Source: Archaeoglobaceae archaeon
GTDB lineage: Archaea > Halobacteriota > Archaeoglobi > Archaeoglobales > Archaeoglobaceae
DNA: 52,530 bases
Direction of reading: 5' to 3'
Assembly: GCA_026988525.1 (NCBI GenBank)
Contig: JALSLC010000020.1
Span: 1 to 52,530, forward strand
Shown here: positions 13,313-34,138 of the stretch, piece by piece
Position numbering within the stretch: the first letter of the stretch is position 1
Layout of the letters: every line of letters starts with the position of its first letter
Position numbers and translations under genes: made by a program
The notes under the pieces: generated by a model
What the model saw: only the letters and a program-made list of their open reading frames with translations
Told to the model about the DNA's origin: nothing
Databases searched by the model: none

Positions 13313-13377
13313 AATTTTCAGAACGTTAATCGTTAAACTTATTTTTTGTGAAAGTTTTGTAAGCAAGAGGTGAAGTT

Positions 13378-13947
13378 ATGAAATTCAAAATAAAGGTAAA
13401 CAATAGATACTATGACGTTGAGATAATAGATGCAAATCCACCACTATTTGAAGTTTCAGTTAATGGGAAAAAGACAATAATAAATCTTTTGGAAAAAAAA
13501 GAAGAAATATCATCCAAAAATATTCTTGCAGCTGAAATGTTAGGAACTGTTGTAAAAATAATGGTGGAGGAAGGAGAAGAAGTAAAAGCTGGTCAACCAA
13601 TATTAATTTTAGAAGCTATGAAAATGGAAAATGAAGTAGTTTCACCTATTGATGGAAAAATAGCTAAAATATACGTTAAAGAGGGTGAAAAAGTTAATCA
13701 GGGGGATCCGCTGGTTGAGTTTGGCTACAAAGGTGTTGAAGTGAAAATCTCAATATCAGGCATAGTAACGAAAATATTAAAAAAAGAAGGAGAAGAAGTA
13801 AAAGCTGGTCAACCAATATTAATTTTAGAAGCTATGAAAATGGAAAATGAAGTAGTTTCACCTATTGATGGAAAAATAGCTAAAATATACGTTAAAGAGG
13901 GTGAAAAAGTTAATCAGGGGGATGTTGTTGCTATAGTGGAGGAATAG
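13378..13947 (+). CDS. Tandem biotin/lipoyl carrier protein (two biotinylation sites)
   Basis: 189 aa: an N-terminal stretch of about 50 residues, then two biotinyl domains, roughly residues 51-116 and 122-189. Both carry EAMKME with the lysine for biotin at K82 and K154. Residues encoded by 13570-13707 and 13786-13923 are identical at DNA level (138 bp, offset 216). Single-domain homologues are carriers of acyl-CoA carboxylases, pyruvate carboxylase or methylmalonyl-CoA decarboxylase; two full attachment sites in one short protein is unusual. No carboxylase subunit is adjacent; the next gene, 3 bases on, is an iron alcohol dehydrogenase. The start ATG follows GAGGTGAAGTT. Confidence 0.92.
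   Translation: MKFKIKVNNRYYDVEIIDANPPLFEVSVNGKKTIINLLEKKEEISSKNILAAEMLGTVVKIMVEEGEEVKAGQPILILEAMKMENEVVSPIDGKIAKIYVKEGEKVNQGDPLVEFGYKGVEVKISISGIVTKILKKEGEEVKAGQPILILEAMKMENEVVSPIDGKIAKIYVKEGEKVNQGDVVAIVEE
13570..13707 (+). repeat. Perfect 138-bp direct repeat, copy 1
   Basis: Compared base by base with 13786-13923; the two copies are identical. They encode 46 residues around the biotin lysine. Sequence diverges immediately on both sides (13569 g against 13785 a; ccg against gtt at the right end). The repeat lies inside one open frame, offset 216 bases (72 codons). Confidence 0.96.
13786..13923 (+). repeat. Perfect 138-bp direct repeat, copy 2
   Basis: Second copy of the repeat at 13570-13707. 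The rest of the two biotinyl domains (for instance AEMLGTVVKIMVE against VKISISGIVTKILKK) has diverged, so identity over only this core suggests recent gene conversion or a recent unequal duplication rather than an old domain doubling. Confidence 0.96.
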
Positions 13948-13950
13948 CTT

Positions 13951-15033
13951 ATGTTCAAATTTAGAGCATCCAAGATTGTATTGGGGAAAGGGGAAAGGAA
14001 AATCTGTGGAAAGATACTTAAAGAAATTAATGCGAAAAAAGTTTTAGTTGTTACCGGTAAAAAAACTGGAAAAACTAACTATTTTTTGGATGTTTTAAGG
14101 AGTATTGAAGAAGAGAATATAGATGTAACTGTATGGAATGAAGTTCAAACCGAACCCGATGAAGAAACTATAAACTCAGGTGTAGAATTTACAGTTTCTA
14201 AGGATGCAATTGTTGCCTTTGGAGGAGGAAGTGTTATAGATACCGCTAAGATTTTAAATATATGTGAGGGTAAAAAATTTAGTGAGTTAAAAATACCTAA
14301 AAAATTAAAACCACTTATAGCTATTCCAACAACGTTTGGTACGGGAAGTGAAACAACTTGTGCAGCTGTAGTTAAAGTTGGTGGAATAAAAAAAGGAATA
14401 CTGCACGAATCTCTTTTACCTGATTTCGCAATAGTAGATTGGGGGATAAAAGCACCAAAGAATGTTTCAGCTTCTGCGGGAATGGATGCAATAATGCATG
14501 CTTTTGAAGCTTACACATGCATTGAATCAGATTGCGTTCAATCAAACTTTTATTCTGGCTCAAATGAAATTACTGATTCACTTTCATTAAGAGCTTTAGA
14601 TTTACTAAAAAATTTACCAGAATACGTCAATTCCGGTGAGTTTGCAAGAAAAATCGCTGTAGGCAGTAATATCGCCGGAATGGCTTTTGGTAATGCTGGA
14701 GTACACTTTGGACATGCTGCAGCATACGCTATAGCAAGTTTATGCGACGCTCCTCACGGTGTTTGCGTTTCTTCTATAGGGCAAGCACTAATGGATTGGT
14801 TAAGAAAATTAGATAGCGTAAAAGACAAGATTTCTATAGTAGATAAAATTATGAACATCGATGAAATAAGAAAGAAAGTAGGATTGCCTTCTCTCTCTGA
14901 ATTGGGTATAGGTTACGATGATATACCTGAGTTAGTTAGGATATCTATGGGTATTGATAGGTTGATTTCAATGAGGCCTGAAATAGATGAAAATGCTGCT
15001 AAAGAAATATTTGAAGTTGCACTAAGTTATTAA
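13951..15033 (+). CDS. Iron-containing alcohol dehydrogenase
   Basis: 360 aa, family III metal-dependent alcohol dehydrogenase. NAD(P) site: AFGGGSVIDTAKI near residues 90-102. Iron ligands correspond to D179 and H183 in GMDAIMHAFEAYT, H255 in the HFGHAAAYAIAS segment and H269 in APHGVC, with the 14-residue spacing between the last two seen in FucO. It interconverts an alcohol and aldehyde or ketone; substrate unknown. It starts 3 bases after the double biotin carrier and is probably co-translated with it. A tungsten aldehyde oxidoreductase lies about 1 kb downstream on the other strand and could share aldehyde substrates. Confidence 0.92.
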   Translation: MFKFRASKIVLGKGERKICGKILKEINAKKVLVVTGKKTGKTNYFLDVLRSIEEENIDVTVWNEVQTEPDEETINSGVEFTVSKDAIVAFGGGSVIDTAKILNICEGKKFSELKIPKKLKPLIAIPTTFGTGSETTCAAVVKVGGIKKGILHESLLPDFAIVDWGIKAPKNVSASAGMDAIMHAFEAYTCIESDCVQSNFYSGSNEITDSLSLRALDLLKNLPEYVNSGEFARKIAVGSNIAGMAFGNAGVHFGHAAAYAIASLCDAPHGVCVSSIGQALMDWLRKLDSVKDKISIVDKIMNIDEIRKKVGLPSLSELGIGYDDIPELVRISMGIDRLISMRPEIDENAAKEIFEVALSY

Positions 15034-19357: not shown

Positions 19358-20806
19358 ATGGTTAACAGAAAGGTGCCGAGAATTATGAGTACTCAACATC
19401 CAGATAATGTAACCATACCGTTCTTCTCTGAATCACCAATCTTAAGAGGTGATGACGAAGTAAAAGAAGCATACTATGTTTTTTCTCATCTCGGCTGCGA
19501 TGAACAGATGTGGGATTACGAAGGCAAGGATGCCGATGCATACGTTGTAAGAAAGCTATTATATAGGTATCCACAATTTTTTAGAGACAATATTCTTGGA
19601 AAAGATGTTTTCCTCACTTTTAGGGTTCCAAATCCATCCATAGAAAAAAATGAAGCAAAAATTACACTTGAAGTTCTTGAAAGTATTCCTAGGAACTATG
19701 ATTACATTAAATTCTTTTACTCAAGTGATCCTTCATCAGTATTTGAAGTTATCTTGCCCATGGTTTCAAATTCACAGGAGCTTGAGATGTTACATCAATA
19801 CTACTCAGAATTTGTGGTTGGTAAATCCAAGAAAAAAGTAGGAGATACCATAATTGAGAATTGGGTTGGTGAGTTTAAACCTGAAAAAATAAATGTTATA
19901 CCTCTTTTCGAGGATAAAAAGTACTTAATTAACTGCGATAAAATTTTAAAAGAGTTTGTTGAAAACAAGGATTTTGAATATCTAAGAGTCTTTCTTGCAA
20001 AATCTGATTTATCCATGAACTATGGAGGATTCTCATCTGATGTTTATCTTAGAATTGCTCTCTACAATCTAAGATGTATGGAGGAAGAAACAGGAATTAA
20101 AATATACCCTATAGTAGGTTTTGGTTCACCCCCATTTAGGGGAAATTTAAGACCTGAAAATGCTGAACTCATTGCAAAAAAATGGAGAAGTGTTTTTACT
20201 TTTACAATACAATCTGCCTTTAAGTATGACAATCCTGAGAAAAATGTTATGAAAGCAATTAAAAAAATTAAATATGTAAAACCATCTATAAATAAAATAA
20301 TAGATGAAGAAGACAACAAGAGTCTCGCAGAGTTAGCATCTCAAGCATATAGAAAAAGTGTTGTAATGCTTTCTAAAATAGTAAACGCTTTATCAGTTTA
20401 TGTTCCAAGGAGAAGAGAAAGAAAACTACATATTGGTTTGTTCGGATATTCAAGAGAAGTAAATGGGGTTTACTTACCCAGAGCAATACCATTTTGTTGT
20501 GCATTATATTCTCTTGGAATACCTCCAGAATTAGCAGGTCTTGGATTGCTCGAAGACAAAGTTTTGTGTGAAATTGTAAACTTGTATAAAGATGAAATAG
20601 AATTTGCACTTAAATTTTTTAATAAAAATGTATGCAAAAAATTGGGTTTTGAAAAAATATACCCGCTAAAATTAGAACAGTATGGCTTCGAAGTAAGTAA
20701 CTTTAAATTGGCTGAGGAAATCTACGATGCTTTTAGAAAAAATAGATTAAACATACTTTCTGAAAAAATACTGGAAAGTGCAAGATTTAGGAGATTTCTC
20801 GGATAA
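19358..20806 (+). CDS. ppcA: Archaeal-type phosphoenolpyruvate carboxylase
   Basis: 482 aa, the short archaeal PEPC (about 500 aa; bacterial/plant enzymes are about 900). It carboxylates PEP to oxaloacetate, feeding aspartate and citrate synthesis. Hallmarks: PRIMSTQHPDNV near the start, DEQMWDYEGKDAD near 48-60, GFGSPPFRGNL near 251-261, QSAFKYD, and GLFGYSREVNG with a C-terminal IPFCCALYSLGIPPELAG. It works with the citrate synthase encoded at 44.4-45.5 kb. The 3' end overlaps the convergent hydantoinase-like gene by 20 bases. Confidence 0.94.
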   Translation: MVNRKVPRIMSTQHPDNVTIPFFSESPILRGDDEVKEAYYVFSHLGCDEQMWDYEGKDADAYVVRKLLYRYPQFFRDNILGKDVFLTFRVPNPSIEKNEAKITLEVLESIPRNYDYIKFFYSSDPSSVFEVILPMVSNSQELEMLHQYYSEFVVGKSKKKVGDTIIENWVGEFKPEKINVIPLFEDKKYLINCDKILKEFVENKDFEYLRVFLAKSDLSMNYGGFSSDVYLRIALYNLRCMEEETGIKIYPIVGFGSPPFRGNLRPENAELIAKKWRSVFTFTIQSAFKYDNPEKNVMKAIKKIKYVKPSINKIIDEEDNKSLAELASQAYRKSVVMLSKIVNALSVYVPRRRERKLHIGLFGYSREVNGVYLPRAIPFCCALYSLGIPPELAGLGLLEDKVLCEIVNLYKDEIEFALKFFNKNVCKKLGFEKIYPLKLEQYGFEVSNFKLAEEIYDAFRKNRLNILSEKILESARFRRFLG

Positions 20807-31633: not shown

Positions 31634-32512
31634 TTAAATTGGGGGAGCCAAACCAAGACCGTGCAGACCCTTCCATATATCCATTACTGCTGCAAAGAGC
31701 ATTATTGCCATAACAAGGTATTTTATGGACTTTGGTCTTGATTTTACTGCAATTCTAGCTCCAATTCTAGCACCAATAGTTATTCCAAGTACCGATGGCA
31801 CAATTATCATGGCAAGCATAGCTCCCCTTGCCATGTAAACCCAGCAAGCCGCAGCATCGTTTATCGTAATTATCATCATGCTCGTAGAAGTTGCTACTTT
31901 AAGTGGTGCACCCATTACAAGGTTCAAAACTGGTACGTTAGCCCATCCAGCACCAAGACCAAACATTCCTGCAATAAACCCTACACCGGCAAATGCAGGT
32001 AAAGCGTAGAGTAAATTTGTTGTTTTGTATTCTACGACCTTACCTAAGCTCGGTTCATACCACATACCGTGTATGTCAAGTTTCTCGGAAATCGGATCAA
32101 TGTGTCTTATTTCAGGGAACTCTACTCTTTTTGAGAATAGATATACAAGGAATACGACGAACAGTATCAATCCCAAACCTATTTTTATGTAGCTTTTGCC
32201 TTGCGGAAATGCATTTGTAACCCAGAGACCTATAATACCTCCCAGTATGGAGAAAATTATAGATACTACTACAACTGGCGCAAGAATTCTCAGATTTGCA
32301 AGACCTTTTTTAGCGAAGTGAGGAGCAGAAGACAAAGCTGAAGTCATAGCCATTACTAATCCAGCTCCTCTTATGAAGTCTGTACTAAATGGATAGAAGG
32401 CCATTGTAAGTGGTGTAAATAGTACGCCTCCTCCAACTCCAGCTATTGGTGCTACTATCCCTATTCCAAGTGTCATAAAAAACAAAGCCAATACCCACAT
32501 CCACCAAATCAA
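31634..32512 (-). CDS. TSUP (TauE/SafE) family transporter, copy 1
   Basis: 292 aa. Start is a TTG at 32512: AGGAGGTG ends six bases before it, while the next ATG (32500) is too far away. Internal repeat typical of TSUP: PIAGVGGGVLFTPL near residues 22-35 and FGLGAGWANVPVL near 184-196; about eight membrane segments with a cytoplasmic loop (KRVEFPEIRHIDPISEKLDIHGMWYEP) between halves. The family exports or imports small sulfur-containing or organic anions (sulfite, thiosulfate, sulfoacetate and others); substrate unknown here. Closely similar to copy 2 at 33174-34067. Confidence 0.88.
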   Translation of the reverse strand: MIWWMWVLALFFMTLGIGIVAPIAGVGGGVLFTPLTMAFYPFSTDFIRGAGLVMAMTSALSSAPHFAKKGLANLRILAPVVVVSIIFSILGGIIGLWVTNAFPQGKSYIKIGLGLILFVVFLVYLFSKRVEFPEIRHIDPISEKLDIHGMWYEPSLGKVVEYKTTNLLYALPAFAGVGFIAGMFGLGAGWANVPVLNLVMGAPLKVATSTSMMIITINDAAACWVYMARGAMLAMIIVPSVLGITIGARIGARIAVKSRPKSIKYLVMAIMLFAAVMDIWKGLHGLGLAPPI

Positions 32513-33173: not shown

Positions 33174-34067
33174 CTACACCCCCGGAAGTATAGGTGGTAT
33201 AATTTGCATACCCTGCAAGCCTTTAATTATATTCAAAACACCAGCTATGAATAGTATTGCCAAAACGAGCCATCTCACGAACTTTGGTTTTATAATTTCT
33301 GCAACCTTAGCACCTATTCTAGCACCAATAGTTATTCCAAGTATTGATGGCACAACTATAAAGGGTAAGATTGCACCTTTTGTTAAGTAAATGCCTATTG
33401 CAGGGGCGTTTGCAGTTATAATTAACATGCTCGTAGCGGTAGCTACTTTTATAGGAACGCCCATTAGCATGTTCAAAACTGGTACGTTAGCCCATCCAGC
33501 ACCAAGACCAAACATTCCCGCTACAAAACCTATGATTGCAAAAGTTACTATTGCTACAGGAGTATTCTTTGTCGTATATTCTATTATTGCATCAAGGTCT
33601 GGTTCGTAGTACTCTCCCCATATATTCAGTTTCTTAGACAAAGAATCTCTATCTTCTTCTTTGACTTCAGGAAATTCTATTCTCTTTGAAGACACCATTA
33701 TAAAGAACACCAGTAATATTATTGCACCAAGTAGGACTTTTATTACATATTTGCCATCCGGATAAGCATTTGTAACCCATAAACCTATCCAACCACCAAC
33801 TACAGACGTTATTACCATCACAGGTGCAACTATTGCGAATATCCTTATGTTTGCAAGACCTTTTCTTATTAGATATGGTGCAGATGATAGAGCTGATGTA
33901 ACAGCCATTACTAATCCAGCTCCTCTTATGAAGTCTATGTTGAATGGTGTTATTATTGTAGATAGAGGTACGAAGAGTACACCACCTCCAACACCAGATA
34001 CTGGAGATATTATGCCTATCAACAGTGTAAACACAAACATAAACAACGGCCAGAACCACCAAGCCAT
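33174..34067 (-). CDS. TSUP (TauE/SafE) family transporter, copy 2
   Basis: 297 aa from the ATG at 34067, behind GGAGGTGATTGG; the longer reading to 34121 would run through the palindromic leader. Same layout as TSUP1: PVSGVGGGVLFVPL, DFIRGAGLVMAVTSALSSAPYL, FGLGAGWANVPVL and the SILGITIGARIGAKVAE block are near-identical in both, so the two transporters are recent paralogues. Eight or so membrane segments. Substrate unknown; the linked DUF1634 gene is also duplicated, so the whole two-gene operon was copied. Confidence 0.88.
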   Translation of the reverse strand: MAWWFWPLFMFVFTLLIGIISPVSGVGGGVLFVPLSTIITPFNIDFIRGAGLVMAVTSALSSAPYLIRKGLANIRIFAIVAPVMVITSVVGGWIGLWVTNAYPDGKYVIKVLLGAIILLVFFIMVSSKRIEFPEVKEEDRDSLSKKLNIWGEYYEPDLDAIIEYTTKNTPVAIVTFAIIGFVAGMFGLGAGWANVPVLNMLMGVPIKVATATSMLIITANAPAIGIYLTKGAILPFIVVPSILGITIGARIGAKVAEIIKPKFVRWLVLAILFIAGVLNIIKGLQGMQIIPPILPGV

Positions 34068-34084
34068 CCAATCACCTCCACCTT

Positions 34085-34104
34085 TCACGTTTTTAAAAAC
34101 GTGA
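34085..34104 (-). promoter_or_regulatory. 20-bp perfect palindrome in TSUP2 leader
   Basis: TCACGTTTTT joined to AAAAACGTGA, a perfect 10+10 dyad, starts only a few bases before the GGTGGAGGTG ribosome site of TSUP2. It can bind a dimeric protein as DNA. As RNA it can form a hairpin that would sit against the ribosome site. Confidence 0.65.
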
Positions 34105-34138
34105 TAGAAACCGGCATACACGTAGGCAACTAAAACAA

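Follow-up and report, generated by a model that had tools for sequence, protein, structure and literature searches.

A two-domain biotin carrier in the Archaeoglobales with identical biotin-bearing cores, probably homogenised by gene conversion

How do two domains of one small protein come to share, base for base, the same 138-bp core when the sequence flanking each core has diverged? The question is raised by a biotin carboxyl carrier gene that we examined within a window of 52,530 nt (the whole stretch of DNA that was analysed), which belongs to a draft genome of genus g1 of the Archaeoglobales (hereafter G000; 1.43 Mb, 39 contigs, 99.8% complete). The reading that we favor, with a probability of roughly 0.8, is that this is an old two-headed carrier in which gene conversion, or an equivalent unequal exchange, maintains the identity of the cores, and which most likely serves a split pyruvate carboxylase.

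The carrier gene and its identical cores

The gene, its parts and its neighbor are laid out as follows.

13367-13373: ribosome-binding-like GAGGTGA just upstream of the carrier ATG
13378..13947, + strand: two-domain biotin carboxyl carrier protein gene (189 aa, ATG start, TAG stop included), from the open reading frame list, with two Biotin_lipoyl stretches
13378..13521, + strand: N-terminal segment rich in beta structure (residues 1-48), similar to carriers that adjoin acyl-CoA carboxyltransferases
13522..13725, + strand: biotinyl domain a (residues 49-116), Pfam PF00364, AlphaFold2 pLDDT 91-98 by blocks of ten
13570..13707, + strand: homogenised core of domain a, 46 codons, identical to 13786-13923
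13621..13623, + strand: predicted biotin-acceptor lysine K82 of domain a, in EAMKMEN, from sequence and invariant across 44 aligned carriers
13735..13941, + strand: biotinyl domain b (residues 120-188), Pfam PF00364, AlphaFold2 pLDDT 95-98 by blocks of ten
13786..13923, + strand: homogenised core of domain b, 46 codons, identical to 13570-13707
13837..13839, + strand: predicted biotin-acceptor lysine K154 of domain b, in EAMKMEN, from sequence
13951..15033, + strand: iron-type alcohol dehydrogenase-like gene of uncertain substrate, 3 nt downstream of the carrier gene

The two Biotin_lipoyl matches total 132.5 bits, and each domain clears the PF00364 gathering score of 22.1 (76.6 and 68.3 bits), so that the protein has two biotinyl domains rather than the one of a single-domain MmdC-type carrier. 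K82 and K154 each occupy the MKM hairpin of a biotinyl domain, with flanking strands in an AlphaFold2 model (mean pLDDT 89.9) built from an alignment of 44 carriers; in the same alignment conservation peaked around the biotin lysine in every biotinyl domain. The N-terminal segment scored 38.7 bits against an HMM of the carboxyltransferase-adjacent set and 33.5 against one of the pyruvate-type set. The alcohol dehydrogenase-like gene, which scored far under every curated cut-off, is kept beside the carrier in G001, G002 and G030, and has no known functional link to it. At the edge of the window lie two RAMP-like CRISPR type III (Cmr-like) genes (415-2815), judged by sequence only.

The original prediction had described a perfect repeat bounded by diverged flanks, and both parts of this description held: 13570-13707 and 13786-13923 match at 138/138 positions, both biotinyl domains of the 189-aa protein are complete, and in the flanks only 21/54 nt on the 5' side and 5/18 nt on the 3' side are alike. 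The first base beyond the repeat is mismatched at either end (G/A before the repeat and C/G after it), and the repeat begins and ends at codon boundaries, giving 46 codons that encode EGEEVKAGQPILILEAMKMENEVVSPIDGKIAKIYVKEGEKVNQGD. In the AlphaFold2 model the tract corresponds to residues 65-110 and 137-182, the biotin-bearing middle of each domain; outside it lie the domain-specific first strands (49-51 and 56-61 in a, 120-123 and 128-133 in b) and last strand (111-116 in a, 183-188 in b). Chance was rejected as the cause, since a 138-nt run was reached in none of 20,000 shuffles of the a/b alignment columns, the longest being 52.

Just one other exact direct repeat of at least 40 nt was found in the window, a 48-nt repeat (31922-31969 and 33471-33518) between two tandem TSUP/TauE-like permease genes whose family was assigned from their sequences only.

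31634-32512, - strand: TSUP/TauE-like permease gene
33174-34121, - strand: TSUP/TauE-like permease gene

This pair is identical overall at 573/873 nt, and the 48-nt run was reached in 0/5,000 shuffles; it is likely a second conversion tract in the same window.

Spread and age of the two-domain form

A two-domain carrier was found in 11 of the 55 genomes of the Archaeoglobales family: G000, G001 and G002 in genus g1, G010, G021 and G030 in g6, and G006, G018, G034, G067 and G069 in g2, the last five with longer linkers. Orthologs of the G000 gene itself are present in G001, G002, G010, G021 and G030. The remark in the original prediction that two arms are uncommon is therefore right only in part, as tandem biotinyl domains also occur in Spirochaetales, Geobacter-type and Oscillospiraceae proteins. 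Single-domain carriers were found in G005 (g1) and G027 (g2). That of G005 has a domain-a-like start and a domain-b-like end, and for this reason we read it as having collapsed from two domains to one, as expected of a loss. In a domain tree, a group with support of 99/97 unites the b domains of both genera with single carriers from other genera and leaves out the a domains; the tree rests on 68 columns, and its many open forks do not fix where domain a belongs among the other carriers. On this evidence, and on that of the flanks described next, the two-domain form is old.

Separate homogenisation in two species

Relatives were also compared for independent homogenisation, with a positive result in the sister species G001, where the cores are identical over a 142-nt run at the same place in the gene. 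Between G000 and G001 the cores are alike at 111/138 sites and differ at 27/138 (19.6%), the differences comprising 14 synonymous codons and 8 codons with an amino-acid change. Because the cores are identical within each genome and differ at 27 sites between the two, homogenisation occurred separately in each species after they parted. The a/b divergence of the cores in G000 is below 2.2% (95% bound from 0/138 differences) as against the 19.6% between species, which makes the last homogenisation in each lineage recent; if rates were equal, the last event per lineage would date to roughly the final tenth of the period after G000 and G001 split. Neighboring genes of these two genomes are 69-79% identical. 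The 5' flanks follow the domains rather than the genome, orthologous flanks being alike at 37/54 (a) and 36/54 (b) between species, compared with 21/54 (G000) and 25/54 (G001) for a versus b within a gene.

Copies within a genome are thus closer than orthologs, synonymous sites included and over a bounded tract, as gene conversion would leave them. Gene conversion is an established cause of concerted evolution in prokaryotes (PMC8223754); non-reciprocal transfer and unequal crossover would both leave the pattern seen in the carrier cores. Homogenisation is less extensive elsewhere: G002 (g1) keeps diverged cores (103/138) whose longest run, 20 nt, was reached by 68/20,000 shuffles, and in the g2 genomes G006 and G034 the runs are short, 26 and 30 nt, though seldom reached in shuffles. 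As for direction, the G000 core matches domain a of G002 at 37/46 and domain b at 33/46, a weak hint at copying of a onto b, but strict diagnostic sites split 3 to 2, which does not decide the donor.

Partner enzymes in the genome

The two carrier domains are the only PF00364 matches in G000. The genome has one PYC_OADA gene, of 479 aa, which matched the PycB equivalog at 813 bits and consists of HMGL-like and PYC_OADA domains without a biotin domain; one biotin carboxylase of 492 aa (PRK08654, 791 bits), that is, a separate subunit of about 500 aa as in a two-subunit pyruvate carboxylase; and one BirA biotin ligase with a regulatory domain. The acyl-CoA carboxyltransferase family PF01039 was matched in none of the six g1 genomes (G000 and five congeners), by which an acyl-CoA carboxylase or methylmalonyl-CoA decarboxylase was rejected as present partner, and the sodium-pump membrane beta subunit PF03977 had no match in G000 or any genus member, by which a sodium-pumping oxaloacetate decarboxylase was likewise rejected. 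Carrier residues 3-114 align to positions 467-588 of the 591-position NCBIfam PRK09282 PycB model, and PycB of G000 ends at position 482 of the PycB model; this is what would be expected if the carrier, by its N-terminus and domain a, were the detached C-terminal part of PycB. Since the carrier gene adjoins neither the PycB nor the biotin carboxylase gene, its partnership with PycA and PycB is argued by exclusion from the gene inventory of G000, which points to a split pyruvate carboxylase as the enzyme served.

An archaeal-type PEP carboxylase is encoded at 19358-20806 (551 bits), 5.4 kb from the carrier gene, and G000 appears to have two routes to oxaloacetate, of which this is one.

Why two domains

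HMMs were built from single-domain carriers adjoining acyl-CoA carboxyltransferases and from pyruvate-type single carriers. Over the whole domain, a was closer to the pyruvate-type model in 9/9 two-domain proteins tested, and b was closer to the acyl-CoA-type model in 8/9, the exception being the converted G000. With the core only, the pyruvate minus acyl-CoA difference was +10.4 bits for the converted b of G000 and +5.8 for that of G001, compared with -5.0 to +0.3 for the unconverted b of g1 and g6; these score differences are small and the lineages few. Genus g6 has both enzymes and, as its single carrier, the two-domain one, and genus g1 has lost the acyl-CoA enzyme. We hypothesize that losing the second enzyme allowed the cores to homogenise or the carrier to shrink.

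These observations would suit an explanation in which domain b is a relic, that is, in which the carrier once served pyruvate carboxylase through a and acyl-CoA carboxylase through b, and b is now dispensable and drifts to conversion or deletion. The opposite preferences of a and b, the shift of the G000 and G001 b cores to pyruvate-like scores, the enzymes of g6 set beside a g1 in which no genome has PF01039, and the reduction of G005 to one domain all agree with it. Against it, the two-domain carrier of g2 adjoins an acyl-CoA carboxyltransferase despite a separate second carrier, and the small score differences from few lineages argue for caution; we think a relic domain b possible, while leaning against it. 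A related suggestion, which we hold only tentatively and consider somewhat unlikely, is that the two-domain carrier is a hub for two carboxylases with one dedicated arm each, conversion erasing the distinction after enzyme loss. Given the separate second carrier in g2, two domains need not mean two enzymes, and homogenisation after enzyme loss is not inevitable, as G002 keeps diverged cores with no acyl-CoA carboxyltransferase detected in its 89% complete genome.

Other explanations for the identity

Apart from conversion or unequal exchange between the domains of an old carrier, the identity could be an artefact, the cores differing in the organism and being made identical by assembly or polishing. 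The genome is a draft in 39 contigs and a 138-bp repeat is near short-read length; however, the same pattern was found in two different genomes with different sequences, both loci lie mid-contig, and the two-domain relatives include single-contig genomes (G010, G018 and G006). Moreover, cross-mapping may erase a few differences but would not make identical two copies that are about 75% alike, as those of G002 are. We therefore consider an artefact very improbable.

Slightly less credible still is a recent tandem duplication of a single-domain gene followed by fast divergence of the flanks, even though single-domain carriers are known in the genus (G005) and family. The original prediction had offered "recent gene conversion or duplication", and of these two the conversion restricted to the core stood up, whereas a recent duplication is not supported because each domain, together with its particular flanks, has orthologs in other species and genera: the domain-specific flanks recur in G001, in G002 and in genus g6, the b domains of different species cluster at the 99/97 given above, and the composite carrier of G005 fits a loss. 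Strong selection on the protein alone, which might be proposed because the surroundings of the biotin lysine are so conserved, is ruled out by codon identity at all 46 positions, which under independent codon choice for the same protein has a probability of ~10^-14.7 (window's codon usage), whereas 14 codons differ synonymously between G000 and G001.

Comparison with known systems

The closest solved relative of the G000 carrier by sequence is the Pyrococcus BCCP (PDB 2d5d, 2ejg), which like other stand-alone MmdC, OadC and BCCP carriers has an N-terminal beta segment followed by an EAMKMEN biotinyl domain; those proteins have one such domain, whereas the G000 carrier has two, a few residues apart and with identical cores. 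In comparison to the archaeal two-subunit pyruvate carboxylase (PycA and PycB), G000 has both subunits of the expected types. Published archaeal beta subunits are ~570 residues long with the carrier domain fused (PMC5059739; see also PMC3199775), whereas the 479-aa PycB of G000 lacks a C-terminal fused carrier and the carrier is a separate two-domain gene.

Carboxyltransferase chains of Geobacter and Spirochaetales also contain two tandem EAMKMEN domains, as do carriers of Oscillospiraceae. In Geobacter and Spirochaetales, unlike in G000, the domains belong to the PYC_OADA chain itself, as fusions with long linkers, and homogenised tracts are shorter. One Spirochaetales protein end (L064, 1-519) contains two biotinyl domains that are identical over a 98-nt run and is another case of homogenised biotin domains. 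Escherichia coli AceF (dihydrolipoyl acetyltransferase) has a related fold and tandem swinging arms whose cores are most alike around the lysine, but these arms are lipoyl domains fused to a catalytic core and their longest identical run is 32 nt. A literature search on tandem biotinyl domains and on gene conversion of lipoyl domains turned up no relevant paper, and the literature searched held no account of a stand-alone biotin carrier with two heads or of concerted evolution in such a carrier.

Proposed mechanism and implications

We propose that the biotin-bearing cores stay identical because sequence passes from one tandem domain to the other, whether by gene conversion or by unequal exchange to the same effect. 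BirA would load biotin onto both K82 and K154, the separate biotin carboxylase would add carboxylate to each biotin, and each arm would hand its carboxylate to the separate PycB, itself without a biotin domain, for conversion of pyruvate to oxaloacetate. The sequences themselves show that the cores are identical, that the two-domain form is old, that two species homogenised separately, and which partner genes are present; we infer that both lysines are biotinylated, that the carrier pairs with PycA and PycB, and that the identity has a functional consequence, namely two equivalent arms.

The G000 locus and its counterparts show intragenic homogenisation in archaea, on a tract of ~138 bp and in no fewer than two lineages; the losses that left a single domain are the corresponding deletion products. 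The two-headed carrier would also offer a simple system in which to ask if a second swinging arm makes a carboxylase faster and if a biotin domain is specific to the enzyme that it partners. If the carrier were indeed a hub for two carboxylases, the family would amount to a natural experiment on the matching of a biotinyl domain to its carboxyltransferase.
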